Source of the DNA: Candidatus Gracilibacteria bacterium CG2_30_37_12
GTDB lineage: Bacteria > Patescibacteriota > Gracilibacteria > BD1-5 > UBA2023
Assembly: GCA_001873165.1 (NCBI GenBank)
Contig: MNYO01000120.1
Span: 1 to 11,213 of the forward strand
Length of the DNA: 11,213 nt
Reading direction: 5' to 3'
The position numbers and the translations under genes are program-made. A model generated the notes under the pieces. The model was not told where the DNA came from and made no database searches. It worked only from the letters and a program-made list of their open reading frames with translations. Below, one piece after another: positions 1-11,213 of the stretch (its first letter is position 1; every line of letters starts with the position of its first letter).

Positions 1-1
1 A

Positions 2-124
2 ACAAATCGTGTATTTGTTCGCGGCGGTGCTGACGGCGGTGTGCACGCTGGGGTCTTCACGCTCTACTTGTCTTGGGACGCGTCGACTGCGCGTCGGAAT
101 GTCGGCTTCCGCTGTGCTCGGTAA
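2..124 (+). CDS. DGR target protein, C-terminal fragment (C-type lectin / FGE-sulfatase-like)
   Basis: Only the last 40 residues are inside the window; the gene begins before base 1. The reading frame is open from base 2 to the TAA at 122-124. It contains RVFVRGG at the start of the variable part and ends NVGFRCAR, the usual C-terminus of formylglycine-generating-enzyme/C-type-lectin-fold proteins that serve as DGR targets. Nearly the whole visible segment is the variable repeat. It matches the template repeat downstream and differs mainly where the template has adenine. Such targets are usually binding proteins whose diversified residues lie on an exposed ligand-binding face. The ligand, any signal peptide and any anchor cannot be judged because the N-terminus is missing. 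The family is inferred from the C-terminal motif and the DGR context. Confidence 0.85.
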   Translation, partial: TNRVFVRGGADGGVHAGVFTLYLSWDASTARRNVGFRCAR

Positions 125-125
125 T
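11..125 (+). repeat. DGR variable repeat (VR)
   Basis: This is a 115-bp imperfect copy of the 118-bp template repeat at 1329-1446. The outer parts align without gaps: 11-28 with 1329-1346, and 47-125 with 1368-1446. In those parts 9 of 13 differences are at TR adenines, replaced by G, C or T. A central block (29-46) is 3 nt shorter than the template and also differs at AAY codons, plus one or two non-adenine changes depending on alignment. The other four differences are non-adenine and cluster at 114-117, the last codons before the stop. This suggests the end of VR was not overwritten by template cDNA and acts as the initiation-of-mutagenic-homing end. Confidence 0.92.
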
Positions 126-139
126 ACCCTCAAGGGGTA
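125..139 (+). other. Short hairpin directly after VR (possible homing-target hairpin)
   Basis: A 5-bp perfect stem (TACCC at 125-129, GGGTA at 135-139) encloses a 5-nt loop, starting at the last base of VR. It overlaps a perfect 10-bp palindrome GGGGTACCCC at 134-143. In the Bordetella phage DGR a small hairpin/cruciform just downstream of VR increases homing efficiency. The position here fits that role, which is inferred from location and pairing only. Confidence 0.4.
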
Positions 140-163
140 CCCCGTCCTCTCGGTCACTTGATT

Positions 164-198
164 TTTTCACCCATCGCCTGGAAGGCGACGGGTGAAAA
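164..198 (+). other. Strong hairpin between target gene and RT
   Basis: Two 16-nt arms (164-179 and 183-198) pair with a single mismatch around a 3-nt loop; the left arm begins TTTTCACCC and the right arm ends GGGTGAAAA. It lies 40 nt after the target stop codon. It could be the target gene's terminator, although the right arm is followed by GG and not a T-tract, or a second structural element of the VR homing site. The pairing is clear and the function is not. Confidence 0.5.
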
Positions 199-231
199 GG
201 TTACTCGCTCACTCAAATTATAACCAATTCA

Positions 232-253
232 GGGCAGACACGGTGGTCTGCCC
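232..253 (+). repeat. REP-like hairpin upstream of RT
   Basis: A perfect 8-bp stem (GGGCAGAC at 232-239, GTCTGCCC at 246-253) surrounds a 6-nt loop and is followed by CCTACGAA. Sequences of this style occur as dispersed intergenic palindromes in many bacterial genomes. It ends 25 nt before the RT start and so would lie in the RT leader. Only one copy is visible in the window. Confidence 0.4.
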
Positions 254-278
254 CTACGAATATCCGTAAAAATCCCAA

Positions 279-1445
279 ATGACATTCTTTACTCCATCGG
301 AGATACTTCGAGCGTACGAAAAAGCGCGAAAATCGCGGAAGAACAAGTACGAAGTGTATCTCTTTGACCAGAACCGCGAGGAACGTCTCATGAAAATGCT
401 CCATGAAATCAACACTGGATGCTATGTTCACGGAACATACAAAGAGCTCATTCTTCAGGATTCCAAGAAACGATACATCGCTTCTCCGCAGTTTCTGGAT
501 CACATCGTCCATCACCTCATCTATGCGAGACTCTATCCGATCCTTGATCGGAAGATGGTACAAACTTCGTTTGCCTGTCGGGTCGGATACGGATCACACC
601 AAGCGGTAACCTACCTCCGGAAACTGCTCATCAAAATTCAGAAGAAACACGGAGAGGATACCTATTACTGCAAGATCGACTTCTCGAAGTATTTCTTCAC
701 GATCAATCACGCGTTCCTGAAAGAAAAAATCCGAAAATACATGAGAGACCCGATACTGCTCGGCGCTATTGATTGTATCATCGATAGTTACATTTCTGGT
801 AATCGGTACGATGAACTCCTTTCAAACAACCATTTCTACATCGATGAACCGAAAAAATGAGTTCCGATAGGTGGTATTCTCTCGCAGCTCTTCGCGAATT
901 TCTATTTGAACGATTTCGATCAGTTTTTGAAACATACCATGAAGATTCGAAGTGTTCGGTATATGGATGATTGTATCTTTCTCGGAAGTAAAGAGGAAAT
1001 ATGCGAATCGATCGAATGTATGCAAAAATTCTGCCTTGAAGAAAAGCTCATTCTTCGGACAGAGAAGATTAAAATCCACCCGATCCATGATGGAGTCAGA
1101 TTCTGTGGCTATCAGATAATAGATAGAAAACTCCTCGCCGGGAAACGAATATGTCTGGGATTTCATAAGTTCATGGACCGACTCGACCATATTTCCGAAA
1201 CGGAAAAAGAATCTCGTATTCTCACACCTGACGACCGAAAGAAACTTATGAGTATCTACGCTTCCAGAAGCGGATGCTTTGCTATCACAGACTCGGGATC
1301 ATCGTATGTATCTAAAAGGGGGAGTGCCGAATTTATTCGCGGCGGTAATGGCAACAATGGTGCGAACGCTGGGGTCTTCACGCTCAACTTGAATTGGGAC
1401 GCGTCGACTGCGAATCGGAATGTCGGCTTCCACTCGCTTCAGTAA
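279..1445 (+). CDS. DGR reverse transcriptase containing the template repeat at its C-terminus
   Basis: The 388-aa RT makes mutagenized cDNA from TR RNA for mutagenic homing into the target gene. The frame runs through one TGA (858-860), read as Gly194. Visible RT motifs, in order: an N-terminal RT block around residues 64-115 (KRYIASPQFLDHIVHH and SFACRVGYGSHQAV); the catalytic aspartate of motif A in KIDFSKYF (D134); the DGR-diagnostic motif GVPIGGILSQ (residues 194-203, IGxxxSQ in place of the QGxxxSP of most RTs); and YMDD (228-231), with the two metal-binding aspartates. UGA encodes the glycine opening the GVPIG motif, so standard decoding would lose YMDD. A thumb-like stretch follows to about residue 345. 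Residues 351-388 are encoded by the TR itself and look like the target's C-terminus. The start is the first ATG in the frame; no Shine-Dalgarno is visible. DGR membership rests on IGxxxSQ, TR/VR and the accessory gene. Confidence 0.95.
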
Positions 1446-1446
1446 T
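1329..1446 (+). repeat. DGR template repeat (TR), inside the RT reading frame
   Basis: This 118-bp sequence matches VR at 11-125 and is rich in AAY (Asn) codons in the target frame: at 1347, 1353, 1356, 1365, 1386, 1392, 1413 and 1419. All but the last differ in VR. AAY codons are the classic DGR design because adenine mutagenesis can change the residue widely without making a stop. The TR lies in the RT frame as codons 351-389, including the shared TAA, and on the same strand as target and RT. The codons just before the stop (CAC TCG CTT CAG) differ from VR at non-adenine bases, as expected for an IMH*-like end. Confidence 0.93.
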
Positions 1447-1603
1447 CTTTGTTGGATCGTTTTCCAGAGCGTTTTGTACGCTCGGACATACCAATGATGA
1501 AGAAAAGGATTACAGGCACTTCCCCCGTATGTGGAAATATAATTCTCGCATCAAAGTATATAAAAAAAAAAGAGTTCTCGAGTTATTCGTTCTCTCTTCT
1601 TTT
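1446..1603 (+). ncRNA. Non-coding tail of the TR RNA (possible Sp-like region)
   Basis: About 158 nt separate TR from the terminator and contain no convincing gene. A hairpin at 1464-1485 has a perfect 6-bp core (GAGCGT at 1467-1472, ACGCTC at 1478-1483), extended by two G-C pairs across a bulged A. A TATAAT hexamer lies at 1538-1543 without a good -35 at normal spacing, and an A-tract at about 1562-1571. In the Bordetella phage DGR a spacer of comparable length just 3' of TR is part of the template RNA and is needed for cDNA priming. This segment has the right position and size, but the role is inferred. Confidence 0.4.
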
Positions 1604-1629
1604 CGGCACTTTTCAAGTGCCGTTTTTTT
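1604..1629 (+). terminator. Rho-independent terminator after RT/TR
   Basis: A perfect 8-bp stem (CGGCACTT at 1604-1611, AAGTGCCG at 1615-1622), a 3-nt loop and seven consecutive T (1623-1629) form a textbook intrinsic terminator. It would define the 3' end of the RT-TR transcript and separate it from the accessory gene 37 nt downstream. Confidence 0.88.
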
Positions 1630-1665
1630 CTATTTACTCATTCCCTTTACTCGTAATCCACATTC

Positions 1666-2361
1666 ATGCGTATCTCCGAGTATTTTCGAACGGTTTTTGC
1701 AGTCCAATATCCCTGTCACCTCAAGGTGATCAAGAAGGGAATGTTCTATATTCTGCTCGATGAAGAAGCATTTTTCATTACACAAAGGTTCTCATTTCGG
1801 CTCACAACGCTCGACCGAGAGACAGTGAAGGTATGATTCCCAAAAAACGCTCTCGAAAAATGGACTCACACATTTTCGGAAGCGGGATGGGCATATGTTT
1901 TGATTGATGGAGAACAAATATACATGGAACACCCAGGAATATATCCACTTGGCACTAATCCGATAGATATCGAATCGTACATGCTCGCACGAGAGAGGGT
2001 GCTGAGACTTACTGATATGGGAGTGAAGGAAAAGGAAGTAAAACGCTTTTTACTCAAAGAGCGTTTTGAAGAGCTTTTCGGCATCGTCAATGCATTTCTC
2101 ATGAAGGTTCCTAAAAAAGAACGATACTTCCTCCGAGAGAAGATCGAAACGAAGATGCTCGAAAATATCTATCAGTATATGTACGATCCATCCTCTCGGA
2201 GTGTGCTTTCTGAGAAGCTATTCTCCGATCTCCTCATCCTCCGCGAGTTTCTGCGATTCACGAAGCGTATGGGATACCTCCAGAAGGATACTATTTATCT
2301 CGACGTGACCGATCGGTGTTTGGAGCTCCTGAAGATCGTTAAAGCGATTCGAGAGAAGTAG
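1666..2361 (+). CDS. DGR accessory protein: MutS-like N-domain joined to Avd-like helical bundle
   Basis: This 231-aa protein begins at ATG 1666 and reads through one TGA (1834-1836, Gly57). Residues about 15-82 resemble the mismatch-recognition domain I of MutS: YPCHLKVIKKGMFYIL, then DEEAFFITQRFSFRLT, VGFPKNALEKW and GWAYVLID match the usual 'GdFYelf..DA', 'aGvP' and 'GykVav' blocks. TGA supplies the glycine of the GvP motif. Residues about 140-231 are helical and basic and resemble Avd/23S-IVP four-helix bundles (VPKKERYFLREKIETKML, LLILREFLRFTKRMGYL, CLELLKIVKAIREK). Avd binds the RT and template RNA in characterised DGRs, and MutS-like (MSL) accessory genes are a catalogued DGR type. No MutS ATPase domain is present. 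Standard translation would show only residues 79 onward. Domain calls are by eye. Confidence 0.72.
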
Positions 2362-2493: not shown

Positions 2494-3096
2494 ATGAAAG
2501 CCTTTATATTTGATACAGAAACAACGGGACTCACGGTTCGAAATGGACACCTCGATGAACAACCCTATGTGGTGCAATTTGCAGGAATTCTTGGTGAAGT
2601 AGATAGCGAAAATGGTTTTACAGAATTGGAACGAGTGGATATTATGGTAAGGCCACGGATTTCCATTCCGTTCGCTGCTTCCCAAGTACATGGTATCTAT
2701 GATCGGGATGTGGAAAGTGCTCCGTATATCGAAGAAGTTATGGATCAGATTCTCCGATATCTGAATACAACGGATATCGTCGTCGGACATAATATCGAAT
2801 ACGACGAGGAGGTGATTCGTTCAGAACTGAAACGTCTCAGAAGAGAAGGAGATTATCAACCAATCAAACGAGTTTGTACCATGCGAGGATCGACGGATTA
2901 TTGTAAACTTCAGGGTCGAGGGTTTTCCTTTAAGCCACCGAAACTCTCGGAACTCTATAAGCACCTCTTCGGAGAATGGTTCGAATGAGCCCATAATGCG
3001 ATGGTCGATGTGGAAGCAACAACCCGAGCATTCGGTGAACTTGTGAAACGTGGAGCGATAGAGCTCGAGGAGACGAAAGTGATGAGATTATTTTAG
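2494..3096 (+). CDS. DnaQ-like DEDDh 3'-5' exonuclease
   Basis: The 200-aa protein carries all motifs of the DnaQ/epsilon exonuclease family: FDTET (D7, E9; ExoI), GHNIEYDEEV (D104; ExoII) and GAHNAMVDVEAT (H167 and D172; ExoIII, DEDDh type). The glycine before AHNA is the TGA at 2986-2988, so standard translation would end before the last catalytic motif. The family hydrolyses 3' nucleotides from DNA or RNA for proofreading, repair or RNA processing. The length suits a stand-alone exonuclease domain with no polymerase part. It lies 132 nt after the DGR accessory gene. A link to the DGR is possible but unsupported by the sequence alone. Confidence 0.88.
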
Positions 3097-3117
3097 GTTT
3101 GATATATATCACAGTAA

Positions 3118-3136
3118 TTTTACTTTTTAAGTAAAA
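3118..3136. other. AT-rich perfect inverted repeat after the exonuclease gene
   Basis: An 8-bp perfect stem (TTTTACTT at 3118-3125, AAGTAAAA at 3129-3136) with a 3-nt loop lies 21 nt after the exonuclease stop. No T-tract follows on the plus strand. It may be a weak terminator or an operator ahead of the next gene. Confidence 0.25.
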
Positions 3137-3142
3137 AATATT

Positions 3143-3184
3143 ATGGCTGATTTCAGAAGATGGTTTTTAAGTATCTATGATTAA
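3143..3184 (+). CDS. Possible 13-codon leader ORF
   Basis: ATG 3143 opens a 13-residue frame (MADFRRWFLSIYD) ending in TAA at 3182-3184, immediately followed by the ATG of the next gene in the same frame. It could be a coupled leader peptide, or the remnant of a longer N-terminus separated by a point-mutation stop. It may equally be chance. Confidence 0.2.
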   Translation: MADFRRWFLSIYD

Positions 3185-3672: not shown

Positions 3673-4779
3673 ATGGCATACGAATTTTATGAAATACTCG
3701 AAGTTACTCGTGAAGTGAGTGCCGAAGAACTCAAGCGTGCATATCGCAAGAAGGCGATGGAAGTACATCCTGACCGACATGGTGGTGATAAAGAAAAAGA
3801 AACTCTTTTCAAAGAGGTGAATGAGGCCTATGCAACGCTCAGTGATCCACAGAAACGAGCTCATTATGATCGATTCGGTTCCAATGATACGGGAGATCGA
3901 TTCGGTGATTCTCAGGGCGGATTCCATACCAATATGGATTTCTCGGATATTTTCGAGTCTTTTTTCGGTGGTGGTCAAGGGGGTGGAACCCGACGGAAGG
4001 CAGGTGGTATAGAAGGCGAAGATATAGAAATTCGTGTGAAACTCGATTTTGCAGAAGCACTTTCGGGACTCAAGAAAAATATTTCCTATAGTCGAAAAAT
4101 TGTTTGTTCTGAGTGTATAGGGACGGGTGCAAAAAAAGGAACGGAACCAAAAGAATGTTCTCAGTGTCGTGGGGCTGGACAAGTTCGCCGACGAACTCAA
4201 ACTATTTTCTGAGTTATGGAACAAACAGGAATCTGTGATGTATGTCATGGAACGGGGAAGATTATCACGGATAAATGTACGACTTGTCATGGAGAGCGGC
4301 GAGAAACATTTAAAACGGAGAAAGAGATTGATATCCCCGCTGGAATCGACGATGGGATGACAATTAAAGTTCGAGGCGAAGGAAATGACGGAATCGGATC
4401 CAAATCAGGAGATCTCTATATATCTTTCAGTATTCCTGATAGTATCGATGGACTCACGAGAGAGGATATGAATCTCTTTTATACGATTGAGATAGATCCA
4501 ACAGAAGCGGTTCTTGGAACTAAGAAAACGCTCAAGATTCCCGTTATTGGAGAGCGAACTTTAGAAATCAAATCAGGAATGCAGTACGGAGAAGTTCTCA
4601 AATTCAAAGGAGACGGTGTGAAACATATTTCCAAAGATCAGAAAGGGGATTTATTTATCACTGTGAATATCAAGATTCCAACACATCCAAGTAAAAAAGA
4701 ACGAGAACTCTACCACGAGATAGCAACCGAAAAGAAAATCGAAGTTGCAGACGGGGGAATTTTGAGTAAAATCTTCTAA
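3673..4779 (+). CDS. dnaJ: Chaperone DnaJ (type I Hsp40)
   Basis: The 368-aa co-chaperone stimulates DnaK ATPase and delivers unfolded clients. The J domain covers residues about 4-70 with HPD at 32-34. A Gly/Phe-rich linker follows (about 68-110, including FFGGGQGGG). Four zinc-finger cysteine pairs come next: C145/C148, C162/C165, C188/C191 and C202/C205. The last repeat is CTTCHGER, not CxxCxGxG, so its final glycine is replaced. The C-terminal substrate domains start at IPAGIDDGMTIKVRGEG. The frame reads through TGA at 4210-4212, giving Gly180 in QTIFG, where DnaJ proteins usually have Gly. Length and domain order are normal for type I DnaJ. dnaK and grpE are not adjacent. A zinc-ribbon gene follows after 29 nt, probably co-transcribed. 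Confidence 0.97.
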
Positions 4780-5156: not shown

Positions 5157-5187
5157 TTAACCCCACAAGGGGGGAGCTATGGCTTCG
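5157..5187 (+). repeat. Dispersed repeat, copy 1 (CCCCACAAGGGG type)
   Basis: About 30 nt containing CCCCACAAGG followed by GGGGAGCTATGGCTTCG. It recurs at 6199-6227 and, inverted, at 10626-10654, always between genes. The core can form a CCCC/GGGG hairpin. The rest of the 5040-5278 gap holds an imperfect inverted repeat (GGGGAACT at 5113-5120 with AGTTTCCCC at 5125-5133), a CGTAC/GTACG hairpin at 5133-5146 and AT-rich sequence, with no gene. Confidence 0.75.
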
Positions 5188-5278
5188 ATTTGCACTCAAA
5201 TTACTTCGCTTTTGAGAGGCTTATAGAATTTGATTCTTTATAGTAAGTCAAATTTGATAGTATTTAAAGGATTTCCAT

Positions 5279-6140: not shown

Positions 6141-6262
6141 GAGATAAGAAATAACTTCAGACTTTACATTCAAAACTCCGTTCCTTGTATCGCTCCAATA
6201 ACCCCACAAGGGGGAGCTATGGCTTCGTTTTTCTTATAAATTCTATCGTTCTTTCTTATCTC
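6141..6262. repeat. Intergenic element with 11-bp inverted ends between atpB and atpE
   Basis: A perfect 11-bp inverted repeat (GAGATAAGAAA at 6141-6151, TTTCTTATCTC at 6252-6262) brackets 100 nt that include copy 2 of the dispersed CCCCACAAGGGG repeat. The left end begins two bases after the atpB stop. It may be a MITE-like insertion or a long-range RNA stem moderating atpB-atpE expression. The remaining sequence to 6371 is AT-rich with no gene. Confidence 0.5.
6199..6227 (+). repeat. Dispersed repeat, copy 2 (CCCCACAAGGGG type)
   Basis: This differs from copy 1 (5157-5187) by one fewer G in the G-run and otherwise matches through GAGCTATGGCTTCG. It lies inside the inverted-repeat-bounded segment between atpB and atpE. 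Confidence 0.75.
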
Positions 6263-9511: not shown

Positions 9512-9645
9512 TATACTTTTGTAGCCAAAAGTACCAAAAGCTTTCAGGGGTAAAAAACTCGTCGGGTGGCAATGTATAAACTGTTTATCATCGTTCTCAA
9601 ACAGTTTTTCCCCTAAAAACCATGGTTGTGGGAAATCGTCATTTT
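9512..9645 (+). repeat. About 134-bp structured repeat, copy A (atpA-atpG gap)
   Basis: An imperfect direct copy of 10675-10807. It begins with an 8-bp hairpin (TACTTTTG 9514-9521, CAAAAGTA 9526-9533), then the shared block AAAAAACTCGTCGGGTGGCAA, shown here only as AAAAAACTCGTCGGG plus TGGCAA, an inner AAACTGTTT/AAACAGTTT pair, and outer arms (AGGGGT...AAAACT with AGTTTTTCCCCT) that can close a long stem-loop. Bases just before it (9472-9508, from GTCATTTCGAACG) resemble another common dispersed repeat. No coding potential is seen in the 9466-9681 gap. Confidence 0.8.
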
Positions 9646-10625: not shown

Positions 10626-10654
10626 GAAGCCATAACTCCCCCTTGTGGGGTTAA
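10626..10654 (-). repeat. Dispersed repeat, copy 3 (inverted)
   Basis: The minus strand of this segment reads the same CCCCACAAGGGGGAG core and TATGGCTTC end as copies 1 and 2, with one substitution (GAGTTATGG for GAGCTATGG). It lies 30 nt after the atpG stop in inverted orientation, so it can also pair in RNA with plus-strand copies. Confidence 0.75.
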
Positions 10655-10674: not shown

Positions 10675-10807
10675 TATACTTTTGTCGAGAAAAGTACCAA
10701 AAGCTTTTAAGGAGAAAAAACTCGTCGGGTGGCAATAAATAAACTGTTTATCTTTGTTCTCAAACAGTTTTCCCCTTAAAAATCCCATTTTTAGAAAATC
10801 ATCATTT
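10675..10807 (+). repeat. About 133-bp structured repeat, copy B (after atpG)
   Basis: The second copy of the element at 9512-9645, in the same orientation, so the two copies flank atpG. The first hairpin keeps its TACTTTT/AAAAGTA arms with a changed loop. The central ACTCGTCGGGTGGCAAT block is identical. The outer arms changed together (AAGGAG...AAAACT with AGTTTTCCCCTT), keeping the long stem. The following sequence to 10864 is AT-rich with no gene. Confidence 0.8.
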
Positions 10808-10864: not shown

Positions 10865-11213
10865 ATGAACAAAACCCTTTATATTGTATTTGGTCTACCA
10901 GTAAGTGGGAAGACGACGGTGGCAAAATACGTTTTGAATATGCTTTCAAGAGAAGAAATATTTCATATATCGGCGGATGGGATTCGAAAAGAATTATTTC
11001 CAGTTTCGGTTAAATAGAAAATTATGTGTGGTTAAAAATACAAGTTGTTCTCTTATCTAAGGCACCCAAGTATCAACTTTTATATTTCTCGCTAAATTTG
11101 GCTTGTTTTTGACTAATTTACCCCCTTATCTGCCCTCTGGAAGCGGGGTGAAGTAGTCAAAACAGCCACACACTTTTTGCCATTATGCCGAAATTGTGAA
11201 GGAACTTACACTC
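10865..11213 (+). pseudogene. P-loop kinase (AAA_33 / zeta-toxin-like), interrupted
   Basis: ATG 10865 opens a 50-codon frame that stops at TAG 11015. It encodes the start of a P-loop kinase: a beta strand and Walker A (LYIVFGLPVSGKTT, residues 5-18), a helix, then HISADGIRKELF, the usual second motif of AAA_33/zeta-toxin/polynucleotide-kinase-like proteins, which are normally about 150-200 aa. After an inserted segment (about 11025-11172), a different frame resumes with HYAEIVKELTL (11181-11213), which looks like the expected next helix of this family. The gene is therefore probably disrupted, with its 3' part beyond the window. The substrate is unknown. The occupied position is where atpD normally follows atpG. 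Confidence 0.6.
11025..11172. mobile_element. Putative MITE-like insertion in the kinase gene
   Basis: Short inverted ends TGTGTGGTT (11025-11033) and AGCCACACA (11164-11172) match at 8 of 9 positions and bound 148 bp with no transposase frame. Next to the right end, arms at 11106-11124 and 11145-11163 form a stem of about 19 bp with two non-Watson-Crick positions. The segment interrupts kinase-like coding sequence. No target-site duplication can be identified, and the exact ends are uncertain. Confidence 0.4.

Follow-up and report, generated by a model that had tools for sequence, protein, structure and literature searches.

Can a diversity-generating retroelement (DGR) be confined, or adapted, to a single genetic code? 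The question is raised by one end of an 11,213-base stretch of DNA, the window, which is the entire contig C109 of Candidatus Gracilibacteria bacterium CG2_30_37_12 (genome G000; 946 kb in 134 contigs, 90.5% complete), a bacterium that reads UGA as glycine. The window carries the 3′ end of a target gene with its variable repeat (VR), a DGR-type reverse transcriptase (RT), a template repeat (TR) and an accessory protein (Table 1). The original prediction had grouped these four, and the grouping is confirmed. Its description of the machinery as complete holds for VR, RT, TR and accessory but not for the target gene, which is cut by the contig edge. The locus is very probably a chromosomal, resident DGR of known mechanism in a UGA-to-Gly Gracilibacterium, and presumably an active one. 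Its elements, the adenine bias between the repeats and the domain make-up of its proteins are read directly from the window, and they suggest DGR activity.

An Adenine-Biased Pair of Repeats

A direct repeat connects window positions 13–125 and 1331–1446. Comparison of VR with TR over TR positions 1331–1434 gives 101 aligned columns, one 3-nt gap and 14 mismatches. Twelve of the 14 lie at TR adenines; that is, 12 of the 21 adenines are changed versus 2 of the 80 other bases (hypergeometric p = 1.8e-8). From TR 1434 on to the stop there are five further mismatches, namely a 4-base block of non-A differences (TR 1435–1438) and one adenine, so that 13 of 19 are at adenines when the comparison is carried to the stop. 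The differences had been called mostly adenine-specific, which describes the core well but not the 3′ end. The VR of G038, a distant relative with the same set of target, accessory, RT and TR, likewise has non-A differences right before its stop, and 10 of its 15 VR/TR mismatches are at A. The non-A 3′ ends of both VRs resemble the known difference between the ends of VR and TR, IMH versus IMH*, as given in passages of PMC6642488.

Between the TRs of the window and G038, 28 of 82 non-A sites are different, compared with 1 of 22 adenines (P = 0.003 for a count this low at A). It follows that the template adenines are kept while the rest of the TR drifts. Nine VR-like regions from G002, G004, G014 and G023 were also compared with the window TR. 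Adenine enrichment is found at p < 0.013 in four of them (G004 C89a, G002, G023 and G014) and is borderline in G004 C70 (p = 0.034).

The Reverse Transcriptase and the TR within Its Frame

The RT has the motifs IGGILSQ and YMDD, and its best match in the Protein Data Bank (PDB) is 8ub7, followed by the next structure at 1.4e-11; PDB 8ubb, listed with the same sequence as 8ub7, is titled a DGR ribonucleoprotein. The claim of a DGR-type RT with IGxxxSQ thus stands. RT trees, proposed as a check on that claim, place the window RT beside Patescibacteria RTs, with 44 and 41 RTs in the two trees and without a named DGR reference set.

The conserved part of the RT finishes near position 1313, and the frame then reads through TR to TR’s own TAA. 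No stop is present in the RT frame ahead of TR, and a translated TR would form the tail of the RT. In G038 as well, the RT overlaps the start of the TR, but its frame is a different one and it terminates there. The overlap is therefore common to the window and G038, and the translated tail is not. For this reason, a conserved function of the tail is rejected for now. The TR within the RT frame is new here. In G040 (L024, C22, 1489–2136, minus strand), an Asn-rich stretch resembling the end of the neighboring target seems, by eye, to run in frame into the RT N-terminus, a mirror of the C-terminal TR tail of the window.

The possible stem at the TR end (1442–1447 with 1508–1513) is absent from the minimum-energy fold, in which those stretches pair otherwise. 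It can form in G038 too, and two sequences allow no covariation test. A terminator scan returned 5 sites versus 2.2 in shuffled sequences, and the hairpin at 1604–1622 is the probable end of an RT-TR transcript, judging from its pairing and T run. An Rfam search of the window gave no match.

UGA Decoding and the Descent of the RTs

The RT and the accessory each contain one UGA codon. Both had been said to require UGA-to-Gly decoding, and this is confirmed: in translation table 11 the RT falls into open reading frames (ORFs) of 193 and 179 aa and the accessory is reduced to 153 aa, and both UGAs are on conserved glycines (Table 1). Since table 11 splits the RT and shortens the accessory, a standard annotation would blur the cassette. 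UGA accounts for 2 of the 33 Gly codons in RT plus accessory versus 4 of 169 in ten other genes of the window, and the UGA use of the cassette fits the genome.

Among 59 genomes, the own one included, the RT query had matches in 17. In 14 of these the match was to RT sequence, and in the other 3 to nothing but the VR-like tail. Window-type RTs were found in the window, G004 and G038, all from the order. In a sample of the phylum, 102 of 379 genomes (own included) have an RT match at E ≤ 1e-20; outside the order, this sample holds no RT above 38% identity to the window RT. Own genome aside, only G211 among the matches listed has an in-frame TGA. In the trees, the phylum is represented by the 29 loci that the phylum search returned and not by all 102 genomes. 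The RT fragments G040, G040b and G013b were left out of both trees, and G336, G055 and G058 also out of the second; the window RT was cut at residue 345 and the G004 RT at 248. Code-25 labels were assigned by kinship (own order), not row by row. In both trees the UGA-code RTs form two groups, one with the window, G004 and G038 and the other with the rest, including two more RTs of the window’s own genome, on C118 and C110. Both groups sit among standard-code Patescibacteria RTs. None of 200 bootstrap trees joins the UGA-code RTs, and the approximately unbiased (AU) test does not reject a single clade (p = 0.15).

The UGA share in RTs rises with the UGA count of atpA of the same genome (Spearman 0.58, 15 RTs, p = 0.023). 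The coefficient is 0.71 without G058 (14 RTs, p = 0.004) and 0.55 if each genome contributes a single RT (12 RTs, p = 0.067). The UGA use of the RTs thus tends to follow that of the host, as expected of resident genes. The suggestion that these elements are confined or adapted to one code fares unevenly: adaptation gains from the tracking of atpA, whereas confinement is weakened by the two tree groups and the standard-code matches. These DGRs have the appearance of resident elements that have adapted to the code of their host, not of elements tied to it by descent.

The G058 RT (L008, C79) has no UGA among 10 Gly codons, and the atpA of that genome has 20 UGA. A recent cross-code transfer by way of G058 was considered and set aside: no UGA is used in the RT, in either DUF1566-like target end or in the long ORF upstream on this 3.3-kb contig, which is what foreign DNA in the bin would look like. 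The G058 contig is probably just that. A phage origin of the window DGR was also rejected. The accessory had no match in phage records, a scan of viral contigs with two short RT patterns gave no match, and the phage RT relatives are at 36% identity or less among the best 12 of 124 matches. The phage BalMu-1 match, at 36%, has an in-frame TGA. The terms “diversity-generating retroelement” and “alternative genetic code” occur together in papers on crAss-like phages. A term search of the text of Sieber 2019, on hypervariation in a gracilibacterium, found no mention of DGRs.

An Accessory Protein That Joins MutS Domain I to an Avd-Like Domain

The accessory had been predicted to be Avd-like. An Avd-like part is seen, but the protein is MutS domain I plus a probable Avd domain and not Avd alone, with family scores below the curated cut-offs. 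The C-terminal half is Avd-like by two profiles (Table 1), and the homolog in G038 reaches bAvd at 1.4e-8 (35.6 bits versus a cut-off of 40). The N-terminal half is MutS_I-like in the window (19.1 bits versus a cut-off of 20.6) and in G038 (1.8e-3, also below cut-off). A low-confidence structure model (pLDDT 52.5) has four C-terminal helices. In a fold search with this model, MutS chains rank first (best E 4.1e-3), a four-helix S23-family protein ranks 10 and the Avd-size chain 8ubb_D of the DGR complex ranks 45 (E 0.1). Direct sequence comparison of the accessory with solved structures gave no useful match.

The same pair of domains occurs in other arrangements among relatives. In G056 and G040, MutS_I (3.4e-7 and 6.1e-8) and Avd (8e-15 and 1.4e-14) are separate genes near the RT, with all four scores over the cut-offs; the G040 RT is broken in pieces. 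In G053, MutS_I is over the cut-off as the C-terminal part of an RT protein, and the adjoining Avd-like gene scores 2.6e-7, below cut-off. Contig C51 of G053 holds a further MutS_I ORF without Avd. Stand-alone MutS_I proteins of about 120 aa were rejected as candidates, as the 12 loci read are the start of ordinary MutS.

MSL (Pfam PF01624) is a known DGR accessory, as stated in passages of PMC10053308 citing Wu et al. 2018. As far as those passages describe them, the known accessories and those studied here share MutS domain I; the difference is that the domain is here fused to Avd (window and G038) and to the RT (G053). Since the same domain is found separate, fused to the RT and fused to Avd, MSL probably works within the RT–Avd complex, as these gene arrangements suggest. 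A literature search, with Wu 2018 and Paul 2017 outside what it covered, found no paper on MSL-Avd or RT-MSL fusions. Both fusions are new here, and no MutS was detected in the family that carries one of them.

The Target Gene

VR finishes at the stop codon of the target, the remainder of which is off the contig. Contig C131 of the same genome carries ribosomal protein genes and secY (from translations) and ends in a prepilin/lectin-like ORF. Its last 23 bases are identical to window positions 1–23 except at base 17, which is C in C131, G in the window and A in the TR. The single mismatch is thus at a template adenine, consistent with VR variation. We infer from this overlap that the two contig ends may be one gene, split where the VR of the population varies. 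The gene with which C131 ends is the most likely target, with a predicted prepilin N-terminus and FGE/lectin-like C-terminus.

The N-terminus of the C131 target matches N_methyl at 1.5e-4 (21.6 bits versus a cut-off of 21.2). When eleven members of the target family were aligned, the N-terminus matched solved pilins (best 2.7e-13 in the PDB search), and residues 314–457 matched the uncharacterized chain 5vf4 at 1.7e-5. FGE-sulfatase is matched over its cut-off by the G023 family member (1.1e-5) and below it by G004 C49; no match was found in the C131 target, truncated as it is at the contig end. G004, of the same genus, has seven prepilin-lectin target genes. Five of these (C70, C96, C20, C49 and C89b) are open to the VR end, C89a has an internal stop and C67 is cut by the contig end. 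A prepilin N-terminus joined to an FGE/lectin-like C-terminus would make a hypervariable pilus-borne adhesin of an epibiont, and display of the target on a pilus may be expected. Putative pilin structures in DUF1566 targets are mentioned in part of PMC6642488, and prepilin-linked DGR targets are therefore not new as such. The prepilin-type target concealed by a contig break is new here.

Proposed Mechanism and Alternatives

We propose that the RT and the MSL-Avd protein would bind an RNA spanning TR and the spacer behind it, with putative ends at about 1331 and 1630. The cDNA that the RT makes would carry errors at template adenines and would replace VR at the 3′ end of the neighboring target. 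The TR adenines appear mainly in AAY codons, and residues of the putative lectin-like domain could accordingly change without stops. The MutS domain would act inside the RT–Avd complex, probably on the mismatched cDNA/VR hybrid.

To our knowledge, the entry of heavily mismatched DGR cDNA into a target gene is little understood. It is tempting to propose, tentatively and with the odds somewhat against it, that the MutS-derived domain of Gracilibacteria is a working DGR part that docks through Avd (window and G038) or is built into the RT (G053). With its mismatch-stacking Phe but without its Glu, it would hold the mismatch-rich cDNA/VR hybrid and so let homing run to completion, also in a family that has lost MutS. 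The mismatch-binding F-x-E is intact in 11 of 11 MutS of other Patescibacteria, whereas the DGR MutS_I domains read keep the Phe and have lost the Glu in 6 of 6. These domains are thus not ordinary MutS, which would also suit a mere decoy that blocks host mismatch repair and plays no role in homing. Relatives of family f2 do have a repair protein to block, with canonical MutS in 29 of 30 genomes. In the window’s own family, f1, none was detected in the 27 genomes searched (own included, several incomplete), nor in the 2 of f3 (f1 and f3 being G000–G026, G028 and G030); part of the order has probably lost MutS-type mismatch repair. The domain is nevertheless kept in f1, and its fusion partners, Avd or RT, form the core of the complex. 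We therefore consider the decoy unlikely.

Several points weigh against reading the locus as a working DGR of this make-up. In both Pfam and NCBIfam, the window accessory scores under the curated cut-offs, its structure model is poor and gave no fold match at E ≤ 0.001, and the model of the target is too poor for use. The C131 overlap is only 23 nt at contig tips; 2 of these 23 bases are TR adenines, and random error would strike one about 9% of the time. No adenine enrichment against the window TR is seen in 4 of the 9 VR-like regions, G004 C96, C20, C49 and C89b (C89b being misaligned). Lastly, the window VR is not a fresh clean copy, with two non-A changes and the 3-nt gap in its 5′ half and the 4-base non-A block at its end. 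The changes in the 5′ half give the VR, as it stands, the look of a mosaic of older and more recent copying.

The same VR defects would fit a once-active DGR that is now dead, with VR a relic and the RT frame through TR a sign of a lost RT stop. Decayed kin exist: the RT of G004 C89 is cut after residue 248, G035 retains the first 47 RT residues beside a VR target, and G002, G014 and G023 were matched only by VR (two of these genomes being 78–79% complete). But in the window the RT motifs, the entire RT domain, the accessory and the TR are intact, the template adenines are kept relative to the G038 TR, and the two contig ends disagree at a TR-adenine site. Moreover, the G038 RT also overlaps its TR start, so that overlap alone is not decay. 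Death of the element is thus quite improbable. Finally, a group II intron RT or other non-DGR RT beside an incidental repeat can safely be dismissed: the best NCBIfam RT match is group_II_RT_mat (6.4e-31), but its 107.7 bits are far under the model cut-off of 300, a DGR is favored by IGGILSQ, the Avd-like domain, the ranking of PDB structures and the adenine bias, and the last of these contradicts an incidental repeat.

Comparison with Known Systems

The window RT is closest to the solved RT of the Bordetella phage BPP-1 DGR, an RT–Avd–TR RNA complex (PDB 8ub7–8ube). Both systems have an adenine-biased TR/VR pair, and the window accessory has a probable counterpart of the BPP-1 Avd. They differ in that the Avd-like protein of the window bears a MutS domain and its presumed target is cellular and prepilin-type, whereas the BPP-1 target is a phage tail fiber. 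In BPP-1 the TR precedes the RT; in the window it follows and overlaps the RT. Like the Patescibacteria DGRs of RT clade 2 in sections of Roux 2021 (PMC8144416), the window DGR is a cellular DGR of Candidate Phyla Radiation (CPR) bacteria. In those sections the lack of a recognizable anchor is found typical of clade-2 CPR targets; the presumed window target has a recognizable prepilin anchor.

Other DGRs and Features of the Genome

The two further DGR-type RTs of the same genome lie on separate contigs. The second DGR (L042, C118, 1689–4714) consists of RT, a plain 113-aa Avd, TR (2971–3155) and VR (3917–4101), with 15 of 16 VR/TR mismatches at template adenines and a Fib_succ_major target. 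It shares genome and code with the window DGR but has an RT of the other group (IGNLTSQ, YVDD), a plain Avd over the cut-off and the TR between Avd and RT. The third RT (L043, C110, 1428–2986) is directly 3′ of a VR-like target end; no TR or Avd was seen within the 3 kb examined. Among relatives, the truncated RT of G004 (L033, C89, 6738–7481) has prepilin and target genes after it, encoded on the opposite strand. The G035 remnant (L040, C23, 70448–70588 and 71004–71108), 62% identical over its RT residues and beside a VR-bearing target, is a possible decayed DGR.

Table 1. Features of the DGR locus. Positions refer to the window, except in the last row.
Feature	Position	Strand	Evidence or remark
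DGR target gene 3′ end, last 40 codons and stop	2..124	+	Translation TNRVFVRGG...NVGFRCAR, stop; remainder off contig, probably at end of G000:C131
VR	13..124	+	12/14 core mismatches versus TR at template adenines; target stop TAA 122–124
Small hairpin TACCC-N5-GGGTA immediately 3′ of VR	125..139	+	Weak: 23/200 shuffles of the stretch fold equally well
Inverted repeat, 16 nt, between target and RT	164..198		Repeat search
DGR-type RT ORF, 388 aa in code 25	279..1445	+	RVT_1 (Pfam) 1e-23; IGGILSQ, YMDD; 8ub7 1.5e-27
In-frame UGA, Gly194 of RT (KGVPIGG)	858..860	+	Gly in 44/44 aligned RTs, 29/29 from genomes outside the order
TR, within RT frame, same frame as VR in target	1331..1445	+	Direct repeat with VR
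Possible stem at TR end, GTAATC 1442–1447 with GATTAC 1508–1513	1442..1513	+	Both stretches also in G038
Intrinsic-terminator-like hairpin and T run, 3′ of TR spacer	1604..1622	+	8 pairs, 7 T
Accessory protein, 231 aa: MutS domain I + Avd-like four-helix domain	1666..2361	+	Profile, fold and relatives comparison
MutS_I (MSL) part of accessory	1705..1887	+	Pfam 1.6e-3, below cut-off; Phe of F-x-E kept, Glu to Ile
In-frame UGA, Gly57 of accessory, conserved Gly of MutS GFP/GIP motif	1834..1836	+	Motif comparison
Avd part of accessory	2050..2337	+	Pfam bAvd 7.7e-4, NCBIfam DivGenRetAVD 2.3e-5, both below cut-off
RT with C-terminal MutS_I, 581 aa, beside Avd-like ORF (L011)	G053:C23 718–2460	minus	MutS_I 1e-9

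Hairpins of the kind found immediately 3′ of VR are described behind other VRs. Elsewhere in the window, a dispersed repeat of about 110–125 bp lies at 9512–9619 and 10675–10800 (5 genome matches including the query), and a short dispersed repeat around CCCCACAAGGGG lies at 5158–5191, 6170–6245 and 10626–10653 (12 genome matches including the query). A short ORF at 10865–11017, beginning MNKTLYIVFGLPVSGKTT, resembles by eye the P-loop start of a kinase and stops after 50 residues.

Implications

The prepilin-type targets suggest that some CPR DGRs diversify pilus proteins, which a wrong genetic code, or assembly across a varying VR, conceals. A MutS domain fused naturally to Avd or to the RT, in a lineage of which part lacks MutS, makes the role of the MSL accessory testable. 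If the proposed role of the MutS-derived domain is true, DGR homing would bring its own mismatch-handling module.

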